Below are positions 54,774-64,000 of a stretch of DNA of 64,000 nt, in pieces. Under the pieces are notes generated by a model that worked only from the letters and a program-made list of their open reading frames with translations, was not told the origin of the DNA and did not search any database. The DNA is taken from assembly GCA_029245245.1 (NCBI GenBank), contig JAQWPT010000023.1, positions 1 through 64,000 of the forward strand, read 5' to 3'. Position numbers and translations under genes: made by a program. The stretch is from Phycisphaerales bacterium. Its GTDB lineage: Bacteria > Planctomycetota > Phycisphaerae > Phycisphaerales > SM1A02. Numbering within the stretch: position 1 is the stretch's first letter; the number at the start of each line of letters is the position of its first letter.

Positions 54774-57700
54774 TCAATATTCGTCCAGTGGAAGACCCAT
54801 TCCACTTCGATCAGGATCAGCAGGTCGTACTGCAGGCACGAATGGCTGGTCTTCGATGGCCTGCAACATTTCAGCGATGGCGCGATCAAGCTGCGGGTCG
54901 CCACCATCGATCATCAAGGATGGATCGGCGATGACCTCGATGTCCGGGTCGACACCGTGCCCTTCGACGCCCCATGTGCCGTCATTTTCATAGAAACCGA
55001 AGCGGGGGACCGCGATGAAGCCGCCGTCGATCGGGCTGGGATTGCCCGAGATTCCGACAAGTCCACCCCAGGTCCGTGTACCGATGAGTGGCCCGAGTTC
55101 CGCCTGGCGGAACAGCCAGGGGAACATGTCACCGCCGGATCCAGCTCGGCCATTGATCAGCATGCACTTGGGACCGGAGTGACTTGCCTGCGGCACTTTC
55201 CAGTCCTTTCCATCACGCAGTGCAAACCAGTTGGTGATCGGTCGGTTGAGCAGTTCGATGAATCGGTTCGGCAATTGACCGCCGCCATTCCATCGCTCGT
55301 CGATGATGAGGGCGTCCTTGCCGCTCTGGCCGTAGAACTGACGGTAGAGGTCGTTCTGCCCGTTGACTCCGGTATCGGGAACGTAGATGTACCCGACCCG
55401 GCCACCGGAGGCTTCGTCGACATACGCGCGATTCTGCTCGATCCAGGCGCGATACCTGATCTGTCCGTCATTGCGAATCGGCTTGATGATCACCCGTCGT
55501 GCATCATCATCAAGAACCGGGTTCGCACTCACCGTGAGCTCGGTGTGCTGTCCGGCGGTGCCGATGAATGCATGGTGCGGATCCACCGTGGTATCGACCG
55601 CAATGCCATTGACTTCAAGGAGGAAGTCGCCTTCCTGCACATCCACGCCCGGCATGCTCAGCGGGCCGCGGGCATCCGAATCCCATGGGCCGCCGGTGTG
55701 AATGACCTTGAATCGATAGGCGCCATCGGCGAGTTCGAAGTCTGCCGCCAGCAGCCCGACCAGAACGGTGTCTCCGCCAGGTTCCATGTCGCCGCCACCA
55801 CGGTAGGCGTGGCCGACATTGAGCTCTGCGATCATTTCACCGATGACATGGTTGAGGTCGGCGCGACTCATCACATCGGGCAGCATGGCTGCGTACTGGA
55901 CCCGTACGGCATCCCAGTCCACGCCATGCATGTTCTCGACGTAGAAGTAGTCCCGGAACGTGCGCCAGACATCGTTGTAGATCTGCATCCACTCTTCGCG
56001 TGGATCGATGACGACGACCATGCCTTTCGTCCTGGCGCTCTTGGAACTTCCGCCCGATCCTGCGTTTCGAATGGCAACGGAGCCTCCCCGTCGATGCGCG
56101 ATCTTCTTGCCATCGGCGGACAGTTCGAATGAGCCCATCGAGGCATTGGCGGACGATCCCTTGTCCTCACTGTCGGTGATGTCATAGGTGTGGAGTTCGC
56201 CGTTCTTGAGGTACAGCAGCTCGTTCGAGTTGTTGACGGCCAGGTTTCCGTATGAACCGACTCCCGTCGGCAGGAGAATGGCACGTGACTCGATGCCGTC
56301 GAAATGGATCTCGAGTGGCTCGTCCTCTTCCTTCTCGTCGTCCTTCTTCTCGTCCTTGCCGCCTGCGTCGCTGCTGCCTGCGGAGTCCGTGCCGCCGGCA
56401 CGAGTGGCGGTCATGATCATGGTCATGCCTTGCTCGCTGCGCTCACCGACCATCGTGTTGCCGTCGACTTCGAAGACGGTCTGTTCATCCGTGTCATCAC
56501 TCGACAAGGTCAGCTCACTTGCCGATGGATCCCATGTGCCCTCGAGATCGTGGTTGCCGACCATGTCGATTTCAATCTCGCCGGTGACCGTGAGATCTTC
56601 GGACATCTTGAGCGTCATGGTGAAGCTGATCTGGGGAACTTCGCCCGGTGCGCCGATGACTTCGACACTTCCGTTCCAGGTTCCACTGATGGGATCATCG
56701 AAGAGCAGGAACAGCGAATCGAACACCGGGGTGTCCCGCATCAGCTTGAAGCGAGTCGATTCCTCGTCTCCATCGTCATCCTTCTTCTCCTCGTCGTCCT
56801 TCTGCTGCTCGTCGTCCTTCTTTCCATCGTCGTCCTGCTGCTCCTCGTCGTCCTTCTTTCCGTCGTCGTCCTTGGAATCTTCTTCCGCGTGTTCATCGGA
56901 CGATTCCTCGCCATCAGCGTCTTCATCACCGTCCGTATCTTCTTCTTCCTCTTCCTCTTCTTCTTCCCATTCAACCTCGTCAAACTCGACCGTCCAGAGC
57001 GCATCCATGTCGTTTCGCAGCGGGATGGCGTAGAGGTTGCCGGGCTCCGTGTAGATGAAGGTGCCGTCGACGGGAGAATATTCAGGACGGAACGTCCGAC
57101 CGCTCGTGAAGTAGAGGTAATCACCTTCGCGATCGAAGGCGGGAGACGTATCGTTGAACATCTGACTGGTAATTCGATGATGCTCGTCAGCATCCAGGTC
57201 GTAGATCCAGATCGAGGACATGCCATTGTCATCCAGGCGATCGTAGGCCAGCCACTTCGAATCATGGGACCAGCTGGTTGACGGTCGCTGCGCATAGGTG
57301 TCCGTGACGACATGCCGCCGATCACCGGATTCGACATCGACCAGGTGGACATCCCCCCCCTTGCCTGTGTACAGCAGTTTCGTGGAGTCGGGGCTCCATT
57401 CGGTCGCGTGCTTGAAGGGTGACCCGTCGGCGGTCAACTGCCGGCGTTCGCCCTTGCCATCAGATTGAACAATGTAGAGTTCGTATTCGTCGGTTTCGTC
57501 GCTGAAATACGTGATCCACTTCCCATCAGGGCTCCACATCGGATCGCGCTCCGCGATTCCAGCCGTATTCGTCATGTTCCTTGCCACGCCCGTTTCGCTG
57601 GGCAGCGACCAGATGTCGCCGCGGGCTTCGACCGACACCCGCTTTCCACCAGGAGAGATCGCGTAGTTGCTGATGCTGTCACCCGTATCAATGCGGCGGG

Positions 57701-58616
57701 TGCGGACACTCGGCCGATCACCTGGGATAGTGACTTCAACGGTTCGCATGTCGCCCGTGCTCAGATCGAGCACGAGCAGATCAGCGCCGTTCTGGAAGAT
57801 GATTTCCCCGTTGCCGTCCAGCCCGGGTCCGTTCGATGGCCAGAGGACATCGAATTCCTCGAAGTTCGTCATCTGCGTTCGAGTGTCAGCGGCGAGGTCG
57901 TATTTCCACAGGTTCAGTCGGTGATTCGGCCCTGCATCCGACAGGTAATACAGCGAGTCGCCATGCCACATCGGTTGCGTATCGGTGCCTTCCCAGTCGG
58001 TGATCTGCTTCGCCTCGAGGCCGTTAAGATCCATGATCCACAGATCCGATGCCATGCCGCCGCGGTAGCGTTTCCATGTCCGGCCATCCCGGGAATGTGG
58101 GGTATAGGCCAGCAGTGAACCATTGCCGTGGATTGCACCGGCTGCGCCGTACGGGACGGGCAGTTCGGTCGGCAGTCCACCTTCGGCGCTGACGGTGTAG
58201 AGCTTCTGATCCTGGCCGAGTCCCTGGTAGTTGTAGCCGGCAAACAGCAGACGATCTCCAGACCAGTCGCAGAACACTTCACGATTGGGATGGTGGGTGA
58301 CTCGAAACGGCTGTCCGCCACTCGTCGGGATCACATACAGATCCTGGCCGCCGTCGTAGTTTCCGGTGAAGGCGATGTGCGAGCCGTCGGCATTGAAGCG
58401 GGGGCGTCCTTCGCGACCCGCGGGGCTGGCCAATGGGCGGGCTTCACCACCCTCGCGAGGCACGGTCCACAGGTCGTTGGCATAGGAGAAGACGATGCGA
58501 TCCTGAGAAATATCAGGGTATCGAAGCATGCCCGCATGGGGCTGGACATCTGCAGAGGCAATGGCTGCCGGGAGCAGGGCACAGAGAATCACCAGGGCGG
58601 ATCGATGCGTGGGCAT
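54774..58616 (-). CDS. Tricorn-type protease with acidic linker and inserted beta domain
   Basis: 1280 residues; ATG 58616 follows GAAGGAAG, with a signal peptide (ALVILCALLPAAIASA). Two WD/TolB-like propellers span about 25-540 and, after the insert, 765-860. Then come the core helix domain with His897 in YFYVENMHGVDWDAVR, a PDZ domain (about 945-1045) and the S41-type catalytic domain with Ser1160 in LINGRAGSGGDMFPW and LGPLIGTRTWGGLVG. The Asp that normally follows the Ser is Gly1161. Residues 545-620 are almost all Asp/Glu/Lys/Gln; 622-742 form an extra beta-rich domain (SGTWNGSVEVIGAPGE, LEGTWDPSASELTL); a second charged linker follows (743-768). It is first in the operon with yceI. Confidence 0.92.
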   Translation of the reverse strand: MPTHRSALVILCALLPAAIASADVQPHAGMLRYPDISQDRIVFSYANDLWTVPREGGEARPLASPAGREGRPRFNADGSHIAFTGNYDGGQDLYVIPTSGGQPFRVTHHPNREVFCDWSGDRLLFAGYNYQGLGQDQKLYTVSAEGGLPTELPVPYGAAGAIHGNGSLLAYTPHSRDGRTWKRYRGGMASDLWIMDLNGLEAKQITDWEGTDTQPMWHGDSLYYLSDAGPNHRLNLWKYDLAADTRTQMTNFEEFDVLWPSNGPGLDGNGEIIFQNGADLLVLDLSTGDMRTVEVTIPGDRPSVRTRRIDTGDSISNYAISPGGKRVSVEARGDIWSLPSETGVARNMTNTAGIAERDPMWSPDGKWITYFSDETDEYELYIVQSDGKGERRQLTADGSPFKHATEWSPDSTKLLYTGKGGDVHLVDVESGDRRHVVTDTYAQRPSTSWSHDSKWLAYDRLDDNGMSSIWIYDLDADEHHRITSQMFNDTSPAFDREGDYLYFTSGRTFRPEYSPVDGTFIYTEPGNLYAIPLRNDMDALWTVEFDEVEWEEEEEEEEEDTDGDEDADGEESSDEHAEEDSKDDDGKKDDEEQQDDDGKKDDEQQKDDEEKKDDDGDEESTRFKLMRDTPVFDSLFLLFDDPISGTWNGSVEVIGAPGEVPQISFTMTLKMSEDLTVTGEIEIDMVGNHDLEGTWDPSASELTLSSDDTDEQTVFEVDGNTMVGERSEQGMTMIMTATRAGGTDSAGSSDAGGKDEKKDDEKEEDEPLEIHFDGIESRAILLPTGVGSYGNLAVNNSNELLYLKNGELHTYDITDSEDKGSSANASMGSFELSADGKKIAHRRGGSVAIRNAGSGGSSKSARTKGMVVVIDPREEWMQIYNDVWRTFRDYFYVENMHGVDWDAVRVQYAAMLPDVMSRADLNHVIGEMIAELNVGHAYRGGGDMEPGGDTVLVGLLAADFELADGAYRFKVIHTGGPWDSDARGPLSMPGVDVQEGDFLLEVNGIAVDTTVDPHHAFIGTAGQHTELTVSANPVLDDDARRVIIKPIRNDGQIRYRAWIEQNRAYVDEASGGRVGYIYVPDTGVNGQNDLYRQFYGQSGKDALIIDERWNGGGQLPNRFIELLNRPITNWFALRDGKDWKVPQASHSGPKCMLINGRAGSGGDMFPWLFRQAELGPLIGTRTWGGLVGISGNPSPIDGGFIAVPRFGFYENDGTWGVEGHGVDPDIEVIADPSLMIDGGDPQLDRAIAEMLQAIEDQPFVPAVRPADPDRSGMGLPLDEY

Positions 58617-58890: not shown

Positions 58891-60000
58891 ATGCCGACGG
58901 ATCTCCTCTCCATGCAAAAAAAACGAAGACCGCGACGAAATGCTTTGCTCACCATGCTCCTGCTGGCCGGTTGTGCCCAGGGGGTGGCGGCGGCAGTCAT
59001 CGGCGTTCCCTCGGATGTCTCGACGATTCAGGCCGCCATCGATGCTGCCAAACCGGGAGACATGGTGCTCGTGGCCGCCGGGACCTGGAATGAAACGATC
59101 AATGTGAGAGGAAAGTCCATCGTGCTGCGCGGCGCCGCGGGCTCGCGAGCGACGACGCTTGATGGACGTGGATTGAAGGGGAGTGTCATCCGCTGTGTCG
59201 GGGTAGAGACAGCGGAGACCCGGATCGAGGGATTCACCATCACCAGGGGGAGCGGTGATGTGAATGACTACGGTCCGGATTCGACGATTGGTGGTGGGCT
59301 GCTGGTTGTGGGCAGCAGTCCCACCATCCTCGACTGCGTGTTTCGGGAGAACAGGGTGACGCTGCATGGCGGAGCCGCGTACTGCGGAGAGAATGCGAAC
59401 GCGACGTTCCAGGACTGCGTGTTCCAATCCAATGTCGGGGAGAAGGGTGGTGCGGTCTTCAACATTCGCAGCAATCCTCGCTTCTCGAAGTGTTCCTTCA
59501 TCGGAAACCTGGCGGGTTACGGTGGAGGTGGGATCTACAACGATCGGCAATGCTCGCCATCCCTCATCGGGTGCCATTTTGATTCGAACGAGGCGATCTA
59601 CAACGGCGGAGCGATCTACGACTACGAGAGCAGTGGCAGCATCTCGGAGTGCTCATTCGCCCGCAACACGGCCGCGTTCAAGGGTGGAGCCATCTACATC
59701 GGCTATCGGAGCGACTCGGTCATGGCCAACTGCCGGTTCCTGACCCAGACCGACGATGTCGCGGGGCGACGCGGGATCATTTCCATCGCCTCGTCGGTTC
59801 ACGGTGCCTGCTGCATCGGTGGCGGATGCATCATCGCCTCGGAGGCGGATTGCGTGAAGGCGGGTGGTGCATTCTCCGGTGTCGGCAGCACGTGCGACGT
59901 CAGCGTGACGCGATGCTTGAAAGACGTTCGTGGCGACTTGAACCAGGATGGCGAGGTCAACCACGCCGACATGGCCGTACTGATGCTGCTCTGGAAGTAG
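58891..60000 (+). CDS. Secreted beta-helix protein with one GACC repeat and a dockerin half
   Basis: 369 residues from ATG 58891; ATG 58912 (MQKKRRPRR, within an A8 run) is an alternative with a better signal (NALLTMLLLAGCAQGVAAA). The beta-helix spans about 35-300 (VSTIQAAIDAAKPGDMVLVA, RIEGFTITRGSG, GGAVFNIRSNPRFSKCSFIG). One GACC repeat (GACCIGGGCIIASEADC) and a single, shortened EF-hand (GDLNQDGEVNHADMAVLMLL) end it. It shares the plan of the gene at 27719 with fewer repeats. It is convergent with the ebo genes, 6 bases apart. Confidence 0.82.
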   Translation: MPTDLLSMQKKRRPRRNALLTMLLLAGCAQGVAAAVIGVPSDVSTIQAAIDAAKPGDMVLVAAGTWNETINVRGKSIVLRGAAGSRATTLDGRGLKGSVIRCVGVETAETRIEGFTITRGSGDVNDYGPDSTIGGGLLVVGSSPTILDCVFRENRVTLHGGAAYCGENANATFQDCVFQSNVGEKGGAVFNIRSNPRFSKCSFIGNLAGYGGGGIYNDRQCSPSLIGCHFDSNEAIYNGGAIYDYESSGSISECSFARNTAAFKGGAIYIGYRSDSVMANCRFLTQTDDVAGRRGIISIASSVHGACCIGGGCIIASEADCVKAGGAFSGVGSTCDVSVTRCLKDVRGDLNQDGEVNHADMAVLMLLWK

Positions 60001-60006
60001 CGTCGA

Positions 60007-61383
60007 TCAGTCCAGCAACAATCGAAGCATCAGATCCCGGATTGCCGTGGCCGGTACGGTTTCAGGCAGGTCGTCGAGGGATTCCGTCGACAGGAGCACC
60101 GGAGTGCGGTCCGCACCAAGGTCGGTTCGTCCGTGAGAACCGCGGACCAGGGACGTATCCAGCGGGATGACGTCCATGAGTGTCCGGAACCCCAGTTTCT
60201 TCTTCAGCAGTTTCCAGCCGATGCGGAGTCGCGGCAGGGTGCGCTTCGGGTCGAGAAAAAGTTCTCTCGGGTCGTAGCCGGGCTTGCGATGGATATCCAC
60301 GGTTCGCGCGAAGTCGGGAGCTCTGCGATCATCGTTCCAGTAGTCCCAGGTGAACCAGCGTTGCGGTTCACTGGTGCACAGAAGGTCACCTCCACGCTCA
60401 TGCCGCGCGCCGCGTGCCGATTGACCGGCTTCGTCGAGCACCTCGTCGATGCCATCGGCTTCAAGGAGCAGCGTGCGGACCGTGGCGTGATCCGTACCCG
60501 GAGCCAGGTAGACGTGGGCGATCTGGTGATCGGTGACGGCGAAGGCTCTTGAGGCCCCCGGGTCGAGCAGTTCGCGGCCGAGTTCCTCCCGCACCGCCAG
60601 CAGGCCGGCGTTGCGCAGAATGCGATTGATCTCGACGGCATCCTCGACGGGGCCGATCCCGTATTCACTGACCACCAGGACCCGGCAGCCGTGTTGCCGG
60701 TAGTGATCCACGAGGTCACCGGCGAGGTCGTCGATCTCACGCACGTATCCGGCGATGGCCGGATCGTCGGGTCCCAACTGCTGCAGGGCGTAGTCCAGGT
60801 GGGGAAGGTAGATCAGCTGGAGATCGGGTGCGTGTGATTCGTGCACGATACGGCTGGCGTCGGCGATCCAGCGGCTGGATCGGATGTCCGAGGCCGGTCC
60901 CCAGAAGTGGAACAGGGGGAACGGCCCCAGTTCCCGCTGCAGGCGATCACGCAGATCCGGGGGGTGCGTCCAGATGTCGGGAATCTTGCGCCCATCGGCC
61001 GGGTACATCGGTCGCGGCGTCACCGCGATGTCCGCACTGGAGTACATGTTGTACCACCAGAACATGTTGCAGCAGGTGAAGTCGGGATCTCGCTGCTTGG
61101 CGACATCCCAGACCTTCTCTCCCTGCACGAGTTGGTTGGCCTGTTTCCAGAACCGGATTTCGCCGGACTCCCGGTCGTACCAACCGTTGCCGATGATGCC
61201 GTGATCGCCAGGGGTGAGGCCCGTGAGCATGCTCGACTGGGCGCTGCAGGTCAGAGCTGGGAACACGGGTTCGATGGTCCGTTGTGTTCCCTCCTTCGCC
61301 ATGGATCGCAGCCGAGGAGCGTGGTTGCGCAGCAGCCCCGCATCGAGGCCGACCACGTTCAGGACCACCGTTGGATGCGCCAT
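60007..61383 (-). CDS. Alkaline-phosphatase-superfamily phosphodiesterase of the ebo cluster (EboF-like)
   Basis: 458 residues from ATG 61383. It belongs to the nucleotide pyrophosphatase/phosphodiesterase branch of the AP superfamily. The metal Asp is in VVLNVVGLDAGLL, the Thr nucleophile in FPALTCSAQSSMLTG, and the later ligands are in YLPHLDYALQQ, VVSEYGIG and VTDHQIAHVY. There is no signal peptide. It starts 3 bases after the stop of the UbiA gene. This position beside eboC and eboE matches the phosphatase gene of described ebo operons, so it is probably eboF. The substrate is unknown. Confidence 0.85.
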   Translation of the reverse strand: MAHPTVVLNVVGLDAGLLRNHAPRLRSMAKEGTQRTIEPVFPALTCSAQSSMLTGLTPGDHGIIGNGWYDRESGEIRFWKQANQLVQGEKVWDVAKQRDPDFTCCNMFWWYNMYSSADIAVTPRPMYPADGRKIPDIWTHPPDLRDRLQRELGPFPLFHFWGPASDIRSSRWIADASRIVHESHAPDLQLIYLPHLDYALQQLGPDDPAIAGYVREIDDLAGDLVDHYRQHGCRVLVVSEYGIGPVEDAVEINRILRNAGLLAVREELGRELLDPGASRAFAVTDHQIAHVYLAPGTDHATVRTLLLEADGIDEVLDEAGQSARGARHERGGDLLCTSEPQRWFTWDYWNDDRRAPDFARTVDIHRKPGYDPRELFLDPKRTLPRLRIGWKLLKKKLGFRTLMDVIPLDTSLVRGSHGRTDLGADRTPVLLSTESLDDLPETVPATAIRDLMLRLLLD

Positions 61384-61386
61384 GGT

Positions 61387-62298
61387 TCAGGTTCCGGAAA
61401 TCGACTGGTGGAGCAGGGACACGATCGCGAAGCAGGCGAAGGCCAACAGGGCCAGGGCCACCCATCCGAGCATCGCGAGAAAGAAGGCGTCCAGCAAGGC
61501 CATTCCAGCCAGGAGCCCCAGAACGCTTCCCATGACTCGTGGAGGTGTCCTGGTCAGCAACGTGAGGCTTCGGGCGATCCAGATGCCCAGCAGGATCCCG
61601 GTGACCAGGAAGGCCAGCCAGGGAAGCACGCTCCACTCCAGGGGATGGTCGGCCGCGAGGATGCACGCAGGACCGAGCACGCCGACCCCGATGACAACGG
61701 TGGGCCAGTTTCCACCGCGGGCATTGGAGTCTTCGCCCCGAGCGATCCCGGTGACACCGGCCGTGTACAGCCCGAGTCCCGCGGCGAGGGAGATCAACAG
61801 CAACGGTTCCGGAGCACTGGTCACGGCGAATGCCGCGACCACGTAGACCAGCGCCCGGCAGAGCCCCATCAGGATGATGGCGGGCCAGGTCGCACCATGA
61901 AGCAGTTCGTACAGCAGGATGGAGGCCAGCAGGGCGGTCGCCGCGATGCCACCGTGCCATCCCCCGCCCAGGGTGCAGCCGACCCAACCGATGATGAGCA
62001 GTGCGCCCGCAACGATGCCGGCGACCCGTCGATCGATGCGACCGGCGGGAATGGGGCGATGGGGAGAGTCCTTGAGATCACGTGTCGCATCGACCACGTC
62101 ATTGAGCACCATGCCGCCGAGGTAGAACCCGAACACCCCCACGAGCACCAGCACGAAGCGTGCCGGGTCGATCCATGGTCCGGGATCGTCAGCGGGCAGC
62201 GAGATGATCCCGATCGCACAACCGGTCATCACGTTCGTGACGCAGGTCGGCAGGTTCGAGATCCGCATCAGGCGGAGCCAGTCATTGAGCATGCTCAT
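61387..62298 (-). CDS. eboC: UbiA-family prenyltransferase EboC
   Basis: 303 residues from ATG 62298, overlapping the eboE stop (ATGA). A polytopic membrane protein with the UbiA first Asp motif NDVVDATRDLKDSPHRPI (NDxxDxxxD). Eight or nine spans are visible (for example FVLVLVGVFGFYLGGMVLND, ALVYVVAAFAVTSAPEPLLL). UbiA enzymes attach prenyl groups to aromatic or other acceptors. The best support for EboC is its place between eboE and the AP-family gene in one overlapping operon. Confidence 0.9.
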   Translation of the reverse strand: MSMLNDWLRLMRISNLPTCVTNVMTGCAIGIISLPADDPGPWIDPARFVLVLVGVFGFYLGGMVLNDVVDATRDLKDSPHRPIPAGRIDRRVAGIVAGALLIIGWVGCTLGGGWHGGIAATALLASILLYELLHGATWPAIILMGLCRALVYVVAAFAVTSAPEPLLLISLAAGLGLYTAGVTGIARGEDSNARGGNWPTVVIGVGVLGPACILAADHPLEWSVLPWLAFLVTGILLGIWIARSLTLLTRTPPRVMGSVLGLLAGMALLDAFFLAMLGWVALALLAFACFAIVSLLHQSISGT

Positions 62299-63422
62299 CG
62301 AGTTCCTTCATCGGCCAGTCGTGACCGGGCCCATTGCAGTTCCGAGGCGATGCCCTCGGCCAGGTTGTCCGGCTGCAGAGAGGCCGGCAATGCCGACCAG
62401 GCGTAGGTCTCGACCTCCCAGTCCAGTGGTTCACCACGGGATCGGAGCAGGTTGATCGCATCCTCCAGCAGTTCCTGGGTCGTTCCCAGGGGTCCGATGC
62501 GATCGACGTGGACCGGGACGTGGAAGTGAATTCGCCATCGTCCGCCCGACTCGGCATCCATCGCGAGACCGAGGTCCTCGTGAAAGCGTGTTCCGGATTC
62601 GTCACGCACCATGACCTGGTGCAGCCAGCGTGGATCGCGGAAGTCCTCCAGCGCCGTGCGGGCGGCTTCCGGATCGGTGGTCATGTCCACGTCCAGCGCG
62701 TTGGAGACCTGGACCTTGCCGATGCCGATTCCTCGATCGTCGAGGGCGGCCAGTCCATCGGCGAACTCCTCATACATCACCGCGGCGTGGCAGCAGTCCA
62801 CGCAGGCCCGCAGGTATCGGCGGATACGGTCGGCATCGTCACCACCGAGCAGGTGGGTTTCGAAGAAGGTTGCAAGCCCGTCCAGTCGCTCGATGGCGCA
62901 GCCGGGCTCGGGTTCGATGTCGACATGGATGCAGCGGCCGGTCCGTTCTTCGAGCATCTCCAGTTCGGCGGCAAGCGAGCGAAGTCGTCCTGCGGCGGTG
63001 GTGACCGCATCGGCATCCATGGCCGGCCCCCATCCCAGTGGAACGGTGGAGACGCCACCGGATCGTCCCGGTTCAATCAGGTCGGCCAGCAGTTCGGCAA
63101 GGGTGAGCGTGTACTCCATGCGTCGCGAGTCGGTCCAGTCCGGCTGGTAGACGGCGTGCTTGACCACGTCTCCGTGGAAGTCGCCGAACGGAAATCCGTT
63201 GATCGTGAAGACCTGCAGGCCCCGCGCATCGAGCCAGCCTTTCAGTTCACTACTGCCGGATGCACGCACCGATTCCAGTGCCGAGGCGGGCAGCCACAGT
63301 CCCAGTGGGAGGTTGCCGTCGATACCAAGTCGTTCACGGATGGCGACGGCGTGGGTCGACAGCGCAGTTCGCACCTGTTCGAGTGTCGTGGCGGCGTGGA
63401 CGTTGCTGCAGTAGCCGAGCAT
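62295..63422 (-). CDS. eboE: EboE, TIM-barrel 'metabolite traffic' protein
   Basis: 375 residues from ATG 63422, whose first base is shared with the eboB stop. It is a xylose-isomerase-like TIM barrel with the EboE signature: MLGYCSNVHAATTLEQV, GLWLPASALESV, FTINGFPFGDFHGDVVKHAV, VYQPDWTDSRRMEYTLTLAE, VSTVPLGWGP, HVDIEPEPGCAIERLDGLA, CVDCCHAAVMYEEF, GIGKVQVSNALDVD. In cyanobacteria the ebo genes are linked to movement of scytonemin monomers to the periplasm. The reaction catalysed by EboE is not known. Confidence 0.92.
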   Translation of the reverse strand: MLGYCSNVHAATTLEQVRTALSTHAVAIRERLGIDGNLPLGLWLPASALESVRASGSSELKGWLDARGLQVFTINGFPFGDFHGDVVKHAVYQPDWTDSRRMEYTLTLAELLADLIEPGRSGGVSTVPLGWGPAMDADAVTTAAGRLRSLAAELEMLEERTGRCIHVDIEPEPGCAIERLDGLATFFETHLLGGDDADRIRRYLRACVDCCHAAVMYEEFADGLAALDDRGIGIGKVQVSNALDVDMTTDPEAARTALEDFRDPRWLHQVMVRDESGTRFHEDLGLAMDAESGGRWRIHFHVPVHVDRIGPLGTTQELLEDAINLLRSRGEPLDWEVETYAWSALPASLQPDNLAEGIASELQWARSRLADEGTR

Positions 63423-64000
63423 CACTCGCCGGCGTCGAATCGCGGGCACTGCCCGAGGAAGGCCACGGGGTTGCCCCAACTCACCTGCTCGATGGAAGCG
63501 GTGTCGTGTCCACGGCGACGCATCTCCACGATGGCCTTGGGTACTGCCAGGGGATCGCTGTCACCCCAGTCGCCCGCGGAGTTCATCCACAATCGCTCCG
63601 TGCCGTGCATCTCGATGATGTCTGCGGCCCGCTGCGGCGTGCACTTGGTATCCGGGTACAGGGTCATCCCGGCCCAGAATCCACGATCAAGTACTTCCCG
63701 AACCGTGTGTTCTTCGACGTGATCGATGAGGACGCGCCCGGGATCCAGTGACGTGTTCGCCTTGATGGCGTCCATGATCAGCCGGGTTCCCTTGAGCTTG
63801 TCCTCGAGGTGGGGGGTGTGCACCAGGACGAGTTGATCATGCTGTTCGGCCAGGGCGAGGTGCTCTTCGAGAATCACCAGTTCGTTACGGCTGTTCTTGT
63901 TCAGCCCGATCTCGCCCACGCCCAGGACGTTCTCCTTCTGGAGGAACTCGGGAATGAGGCTCATCACCTCCCTGGCGAACCCGGCGTCTTCCGCCTCCTT
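63422..64000 (-). CDS. eboB: EboB, TatD-family metal hydrolase (truncated by window edge)
   Basis: The visible C-terminal 192 residues run off the right edge. TatD-family metal ligands are seen in GVGEIGLNKNSRNELV (Glu), VHTPHLEDKLKGTR (His), IDHVEEHTVREV (His) and MNSAGDWGDSDPLAVPKA (Asp). The exact wording GFWAGMTLYPDTKCTP and MRRRGHDTASIEQVSWGNP distinguishes EboB from housekeeping TatD nucleases. It is first of the visible ebo genes; eboA and eboD, if present, would lie beyond base 64000. Confidence 0.92.
   Translation of the reverse strand, partial: KEAEDAGFAREVMSLIPEFLQKENVLGVGEIGLNKNSRNELVILEEHLALAEQHDQLVLVHTPHLEDKLKGTRLIMDAIKANTSLDPGRVLIDHVEEHTVREVLDRGFWAGMTLYPDTKCTPQRAADIIEMHGTERLWMNSAGDWGDSDPLAVPKAIVEMRRRGHDTASIEQVSWGNPVAFLGQCPRFDAGE

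Follow-up and report, generated by a model that had tools for sequence, protein, structure and literature searches.

Extent and layout of the cluster

The right end of the window raises the question whether a planctomycete carries a complete ebo operon and, if so, what such an operon would make. The window is the whole stretch of DNA analysed, 64,000 nucleotides of a Phycisphaerales genome, and corresponds to bases 1-64000 of contig C14 (75770 bases); the continuation of the contig beyond 64000 was also read. The ebo operon is a widespread gene set, spread across many phyla and some plastids, and is believed to make a prenylated, sugar-like product that aids the movement of small molecules across the cell membrane. 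In Nostoc punctiforme, the scytonemin monomer stays cytoplasmic when ebo genes are deleted (PMC6282210), and Pseudomonas fluorescens needs an ebo-containing cluster to deter nematode grazing.

A first-pass annotation had described four tightly overlapping leftward genes at 60007-64000, and the reading frames and junction overlaps were found as described. All lie on the minus strand. The last gene, eboF (60007-61383), encodes an AP-superfamily (type I phosphodiesterase/NPP) protein of 458 amino acids. It is preceded by eboC (61387-62298), encoding a UbiA-superfamily membrane prenyltransferase of 303 amino acids with an NDxxDxxxD motif, and by eboE (62295-63422), encoding a xylose-isomerase-like TIM-barrel protein of 375 amino acids and starting with an ATG inside TGATG. 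The window edge cuts the cluster inside eboB, which encodes a TatD-like metallo-dependent hydrolase and occupies 63422-64000 of the window; reading of the open reading frames located the rest on the same contig, with the full gene reaching contig position 64228. To the right of the window, on the same strand, a 101-residue ORF (eboG, 64225-64530) lies directly upstream of eboB, and an AroB-related gene (eboD, 64569-65786) lies upstream of eboG. The eboB and eboE genes share 1 base and eboE and eboC share 4, while a gap of 3 bases separates eboC from eboF; eboB and eboG overlap by 4 bases and eboG is 38 bases from eboD.

The six genes, in the order eboD-G-B-E-C-F, are thus tightly packed on a single strand and, judged from their layout, look like one putative operon, with clustered homologues of EboB, EboC, EboD, EboE and EboF as in other ebo operons. 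Because a plus-strand ORF that converges on eboF stops at 60000, eboF is the final gene of the leftward run. The annotation was right that neither eboD nor eboA lies downstream, and had concluded that either the order differs or the set is reduced. The order does differ; the set is not reduced, because the contig continuation, with eboG and eboD upstream of eboB, makes the cluster six genes long, a complete EboG-variant set. The finding of an ebo cluster in a planctomycete is supported in substance; its closest relatives that bear a name belong to Phycisphaerales and other Planctomycetota.

Family assignment of EboB, EboC, EboD and EboE

Profile searches bore out the identities proposed for the four window genes as EboB, EboE, EboC and an AP-superfamily enzyme. 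EboE scored 398.7 bits against the NCBIfam equivalog NF035939, 'metabolite traffic protein EboE' (cut-off 250), and its residues E169, E171, D208, H211, H298, H300, E335 and E337 (aligned-domain numbering) are invariant. The UbiA-family protein matched PF01040 (2.8e-17) and had EboC (NF035940) as its best NCBIfam match (9.3e-29), with 100.7 bits, under the cut-off of 250. Since the EboC proteins of Deinococcus and Azospirillum ebo clusters also fall under this cut-off (106.9 and 89.1 bits), NF035940 does not cover this EboC branch. The predicted EboC identity rests on the best match, the motif and the place in the cluster; residues N61, D62, D65, D69 and R143 (aligned-domain numbering) are conserved. 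The full-length EboB is TatD-like (PF01026, 1e-8), with AF_1765 (3guw, E 3e-39) as its closest solved relative, and its H7, H9, E106, H137, H170 and D220 are invariant in 112 EboB sequences. No EboB was found in IMG/VR viral contigs.

EboD is a DHQ-synthase homologue. It scored 494 bits against PRK06203 (cut-off 333) and 197.7 bits against the AroB equivalog, under the cut-off of 305, and a separate aroB on contig C6 reached 325.7 bits, over that same AroB cut-off. On these grounds the AroB-related gene of the cluster was assigned as eboD.

The altered metal site of EboF

EboF matched PF01663 (9.1e-66) and is 46-61% identical to the EboF proteins of other ebo clusters. In a Foldseek comparison its AlphaFold model (pLDDT 93.7) matched phosphonoacetate hydrolase as well as NPPs. 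The metal ligands of Xanthomonas NPP (XaNPP), which we take to be D54, D210, H214, D257, H258 and H363, with Thr90 as the nucleophile, were mapped onto EboF by alignment to structure 2gsn, where a construct numbering offset of 39 fits the ligands assumed. EboF keeps the nucleophile Thr90 (T45) and Asp210 (D197), whereas V11 stands for Asp54, Q201 for His214, E240 for Asp257 and Y241 for His258. The alignment does not reach XaNPP His363, and pairing it with H365 of EboF is a guess. Four of the five alignable ligands are replaced in 45/45 EboF sequences, A-type and G-type alike; at the Asp54 position five of them have Ala, and at the Asp257 position two keep Asp.

EboF consequently does not carry the XaNPP ligand set that characterizes two-metal NPPs and alkaline phosphatases. 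Canonical phosphodiesterase chemistry appears doubtful given these replacements, and the protein may still bind a single metal or function differently. The EboF section of the 2016 paper (PMC5133447) makes no mention of the ligand loss.

EboG and its relation to EboA

The product of the 101-residue ORF is, by profile comparison, EboG, the short protein that replaces EboA in Deinococcales and others according to Yurchenko et al. 2016 (PMC5133447). It has no match in Pfam or NCBIfam. A profile of planctomycete and verrucomicrobial EboG matched short Deinococcus proteins encoded in the same slot (E 3e-26 and 2e-21), and the Deinococcus plasmids NZ_CP097151 and NZ_CP140100 annotate this slot as a short 'hypothetical protein'. 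All six genes of these plasmids are homologous to those of the window cluster and have the same D-G-B-E-C-F order, with EboG replacing EboA. The window cluster differs from this EboG-type operon, and from the eboG variant described in PMC5133447, in its planctomycete host. Arg, Asp and Ser-Asp are the invariant positions of EboG, and its model is all helical with three main helices (pLDDT 84). Comparison of the model with the PDB by Foldseek and VIA-align gave no match, which does not make the fold new, and PDB sequences gave weak matches only.

EboA had no match in the window's genome. With EboG present and EboA absent, the cluster is of the EboG variant and not of the EboA (ABCDEF) variant. 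The ABCDEF-type clusters of cyanobacteria, Bacteroidetes, Leptospira and eustigmatophyte plastids share homologous B, C, D, E and F genes with the window cluster, but their gene order differs and they fall on the opposite side of the A/G tree split. EboG was found directly upstream of eboB in 81/81 loci, a biased sample since most loci were fetched by EboB similarity, and EboA, where present, occupies the same slot in 18/19 loci. A comparison of EboG and EboA profiles lent no support to homology between the two, at an hhalign probability of about 1% with a shallow EboA profile (15 sequences).

To survey the phylum, 294 planctomycete genomes were searched for EboE, EboA and EboG. EboE was present in 218 (176 over its cut-off), EboA exceeded its cut-off in 74, and 41 had an EboG match with an E-value no higher than 1e-4. 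The single genome with both EboA and EboG (G282) is 54% complete, and its EboG match is one of 26 bits in a 2371-aa frame; EboA and EboG did not convincingly co-occur in the 294 genomes. The Fisher test for the two gave p 2.9e-6, a value that overstates the strength of the exclusion because related genomes were counted as independent. Many EboE-bearing planctomycete genomes have neither EboA nor EboG, so that a further ebo form besides the A-type and the G-type may exist.

Proposed product and function

An isoprenoid-cyclitol product has been proposed for ebo (PMC5133447). The best mechanism that we can infer for the window cluster, and to which we give an even chance, is that eboD-G-B-E-C-F makes a prenyl-cyclitol that assists export. 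EboD, as a sugar phosphate cyclase distinct from the AroB of the genome, would close a sugar phosphate, probably sedoheptulose 7-phosphate, to a cyclitol. The cyclitol would be tailored by EboE, as a TIM-barrel metal enzyme, and by the metallo-hydrolase EboB with EboG as its small helical partner, a partnership suggested by gene adjacency; EboG would serve EboB here as EboA does elsewhere. In the membrane, EboC would use a prenyl diphosphate to attach a prenyl chain to the cyclitol, and EboF, with its AP fold and altered metal site, might act non-canonically on a phosphate-bearing intermediate or bind it. The prenyl-cyclitol would remain in the membrane and help to export a small molecule into the periplasm, in the way that ebo genes act on the scytonemin monomer in N. 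punctiforme. The MFS transporter and the peptidase C26 protein found between eboB and eboE in some relatives suit such an export role. That the same metabolite pathway operates in this planctomycete, as the annotation supposed, is an extrapolation.

Support for a cyclitol comes from the ebo-like clusters of Streptomyces with an SCO3242-family prenyltransferase. These have EboB, EboE, EboF and an EboC relative in common with the window, but they are of the EboA type and, in the stretches read, encode an inositol-phosphate synthase homologue while eboD is absent. In four Streptomyces plasmid clusters (L165, L168, L169 and L170) an annotated inositol-3-phosphate synthase adjoins the EboC-like prenyltransferase in 4/4 and eboD is present in 0/4; for L165 the synthase was confirmed by Pfam (PF07994 and PF01658). 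The sugar phosphate cyclase and inositol-phosphate synthase families both build rings from sugar phosphates. A cyclitol product fits clusters that have a myo-inositol-phosphate synthase homologue but lack eboD.

Against a prenyl-cyclitol stand the acceptors used by EboC homologues in vitro, which are aromatic quinolines: 8-hydroxyquinoline-2-carboxylic acid is farnesylated by the enzymes of the marine bacteria Maribacter, Zobellia and Algoriphagus (PMC9235831), although prenyl transfer by these homologues itself counts in favour of the model. Against its role in export, the window cluster has no transporter gene (nor a peptidase C26 gene). The doubtful phosphodiesterase chemistry of EboF also weighs against the model, and no ebo product was found in the literature on ebo, EboE, SCO3242 and the Pseudomonas EDB cluster. 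The farnesylation results and the homology of EboD to DHQ synthase would also agree with a cluster that makes a prenylated aromatic metabolite, for example of the quinoline type, in which EboD feeds a shikimate-like branch and the export effects in Nostoc are secondary. We consider this unlikely, since EboD falls under the AroB equivalog cut-off in a genome with a separate aroB, the cluster lacks an aromatic-modifying enzyme, and the Streptomyces synthase in clusters without eboD fits a cyclitol better.

Returning to the prenyl-cyclitol, we tentatively suggest a more specific combination, in which the metal-altered EboF is not a two-metal phosphodiesterase, the prenylated cyclitol ring comes from EboD or from inositol-phosphate synthase, and EboA and EboG are interchangeable partners of EboB. 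The exclusivity of EboA and EboG, the lost EboF ligands and the Streptomyces inositol-phosphate synthase are testable constraints on the product of the pathway.

Conservation of gene order and history of the cluster

Conservation of the gene order in related genomes, on which the annotation had made its proposal depend, was found. In a locus of the same genus (L173) the D-G-B-E-C-F arrangement is equal within two bases between matched domains. Among 20 loci of the window's family, chosen for having EboG, EboG adjoins EboB in 20/20, and all six genes occur in D-G-B-E-C-F order in 11 (L173 and 10 more), some with insertions, which lie mostly between B and E. Overall this order was found in 24 loci: the window, the two Deinococcus plasmids and 21 others.

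Individual loci showed further variation. Insertions between eboB and eboE were seen in L101, L104, L110, L117 and L087; Pfam identified an MFS transporter at this place in L101, L087 and L117 and a peptidase C26-like gene in L101, with similar ORFs in others, and some loci have a thioredoxin-like gene. In the Verrucomicrobiota loci L129, L134, L145, L148, L150 and L158 the order is G-B-E-C-D-F, with eboD between eboC and eboF. Neither EboA nor EboG was recognised in the planctomycete loci L046 and L055, which have the order B-C-F-D-E, or in L056, where an SDR-type ORF lies between eboB and eboC.

The EboB tree separated G-type from A-type sequences with high support and placed EboB of the window with that of G-type clusters. 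A concatenated B-D-E-F tree gave the same split (SH-aLRT 100), with roots chosen for drawing only. In its G-type part Deinococcus, Verrucomicrobiota and Planctomycetota form separate branches and the window is nested among the planctomycetes. Such trees had been suggested as a means to distinguish an old resident cluster from transfer, and since the G-type branches are separate and the window falls within the planctomycetes, a long-resident cluster looks like the better fit. Recent acquisition, for example from a Deinococcus-like donor, would account for the identical gene order on the Deinococcus plasmids and for the absence of the cluster from some families of the same order; the tree positions, together with the presence of EboG in 28/29 genomes of the window's family among those listed, make it very improbable. 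That the genes are chance neighbours, housekeeping enzymes with no functional tie (TatD DNase, xylose isomerase-like protein, UbiA, alkaline phosphatase and AroB) as superfamily-level Pfam matches alone would permit, can practically be dismissed in view of the EboE equivalog match, the grouping of EboB with its G-type counterparts, the aroB elsewhere, and the recurrence of gene order and overlaps in relatives, with two Deinococcus plasmids and 21 other loci sharing the order of all six genes and conservation across phyla.

The window cluster is of a known operon kind, and its clustering in a planctomycete is new with respect to the 2016 survey, which reported no ebo clustering in three planctomycetes examined (PMC5133447). 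That paper was the only one found to join ebo, scytonemin and Planctomycetes, in a search mostly outside subscription literature. Complete, conserved planctomycete clusters thus extend the published survey.

Flanking regions

The annotation had proposed reading to the right of base 64000 for eboA, eboD or scytonemin-like genes. This part of the contig yielded eboD, together with eboG, but not eboA. Over the 11.8 kb that follow the window, nothing resembling a scytonemin gene was recognised, and the local sequence thus lends no support to a scytonemin link. The larger ORFs right of the cluster encode a SpoIIE-type phosphatase, an aminotransferase, FolE2, a glucose/sorbosone dehydrogenase and a GNAT protein. 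On the left, the convergent plus-strand ORF (58891-60000) stops 7 bases from eboF, and its product resembles a secreted protein with repeats and a C-terminal end like a dockerin; elsewhere in the genome, contigs C9, C27 and C32 have spots whose DNA is similar to this stretch. Further left, a minus-strand ORF (54774-58616, 1280 amino acids) contains a long acidic, lysine-containing low-complexity stretch.
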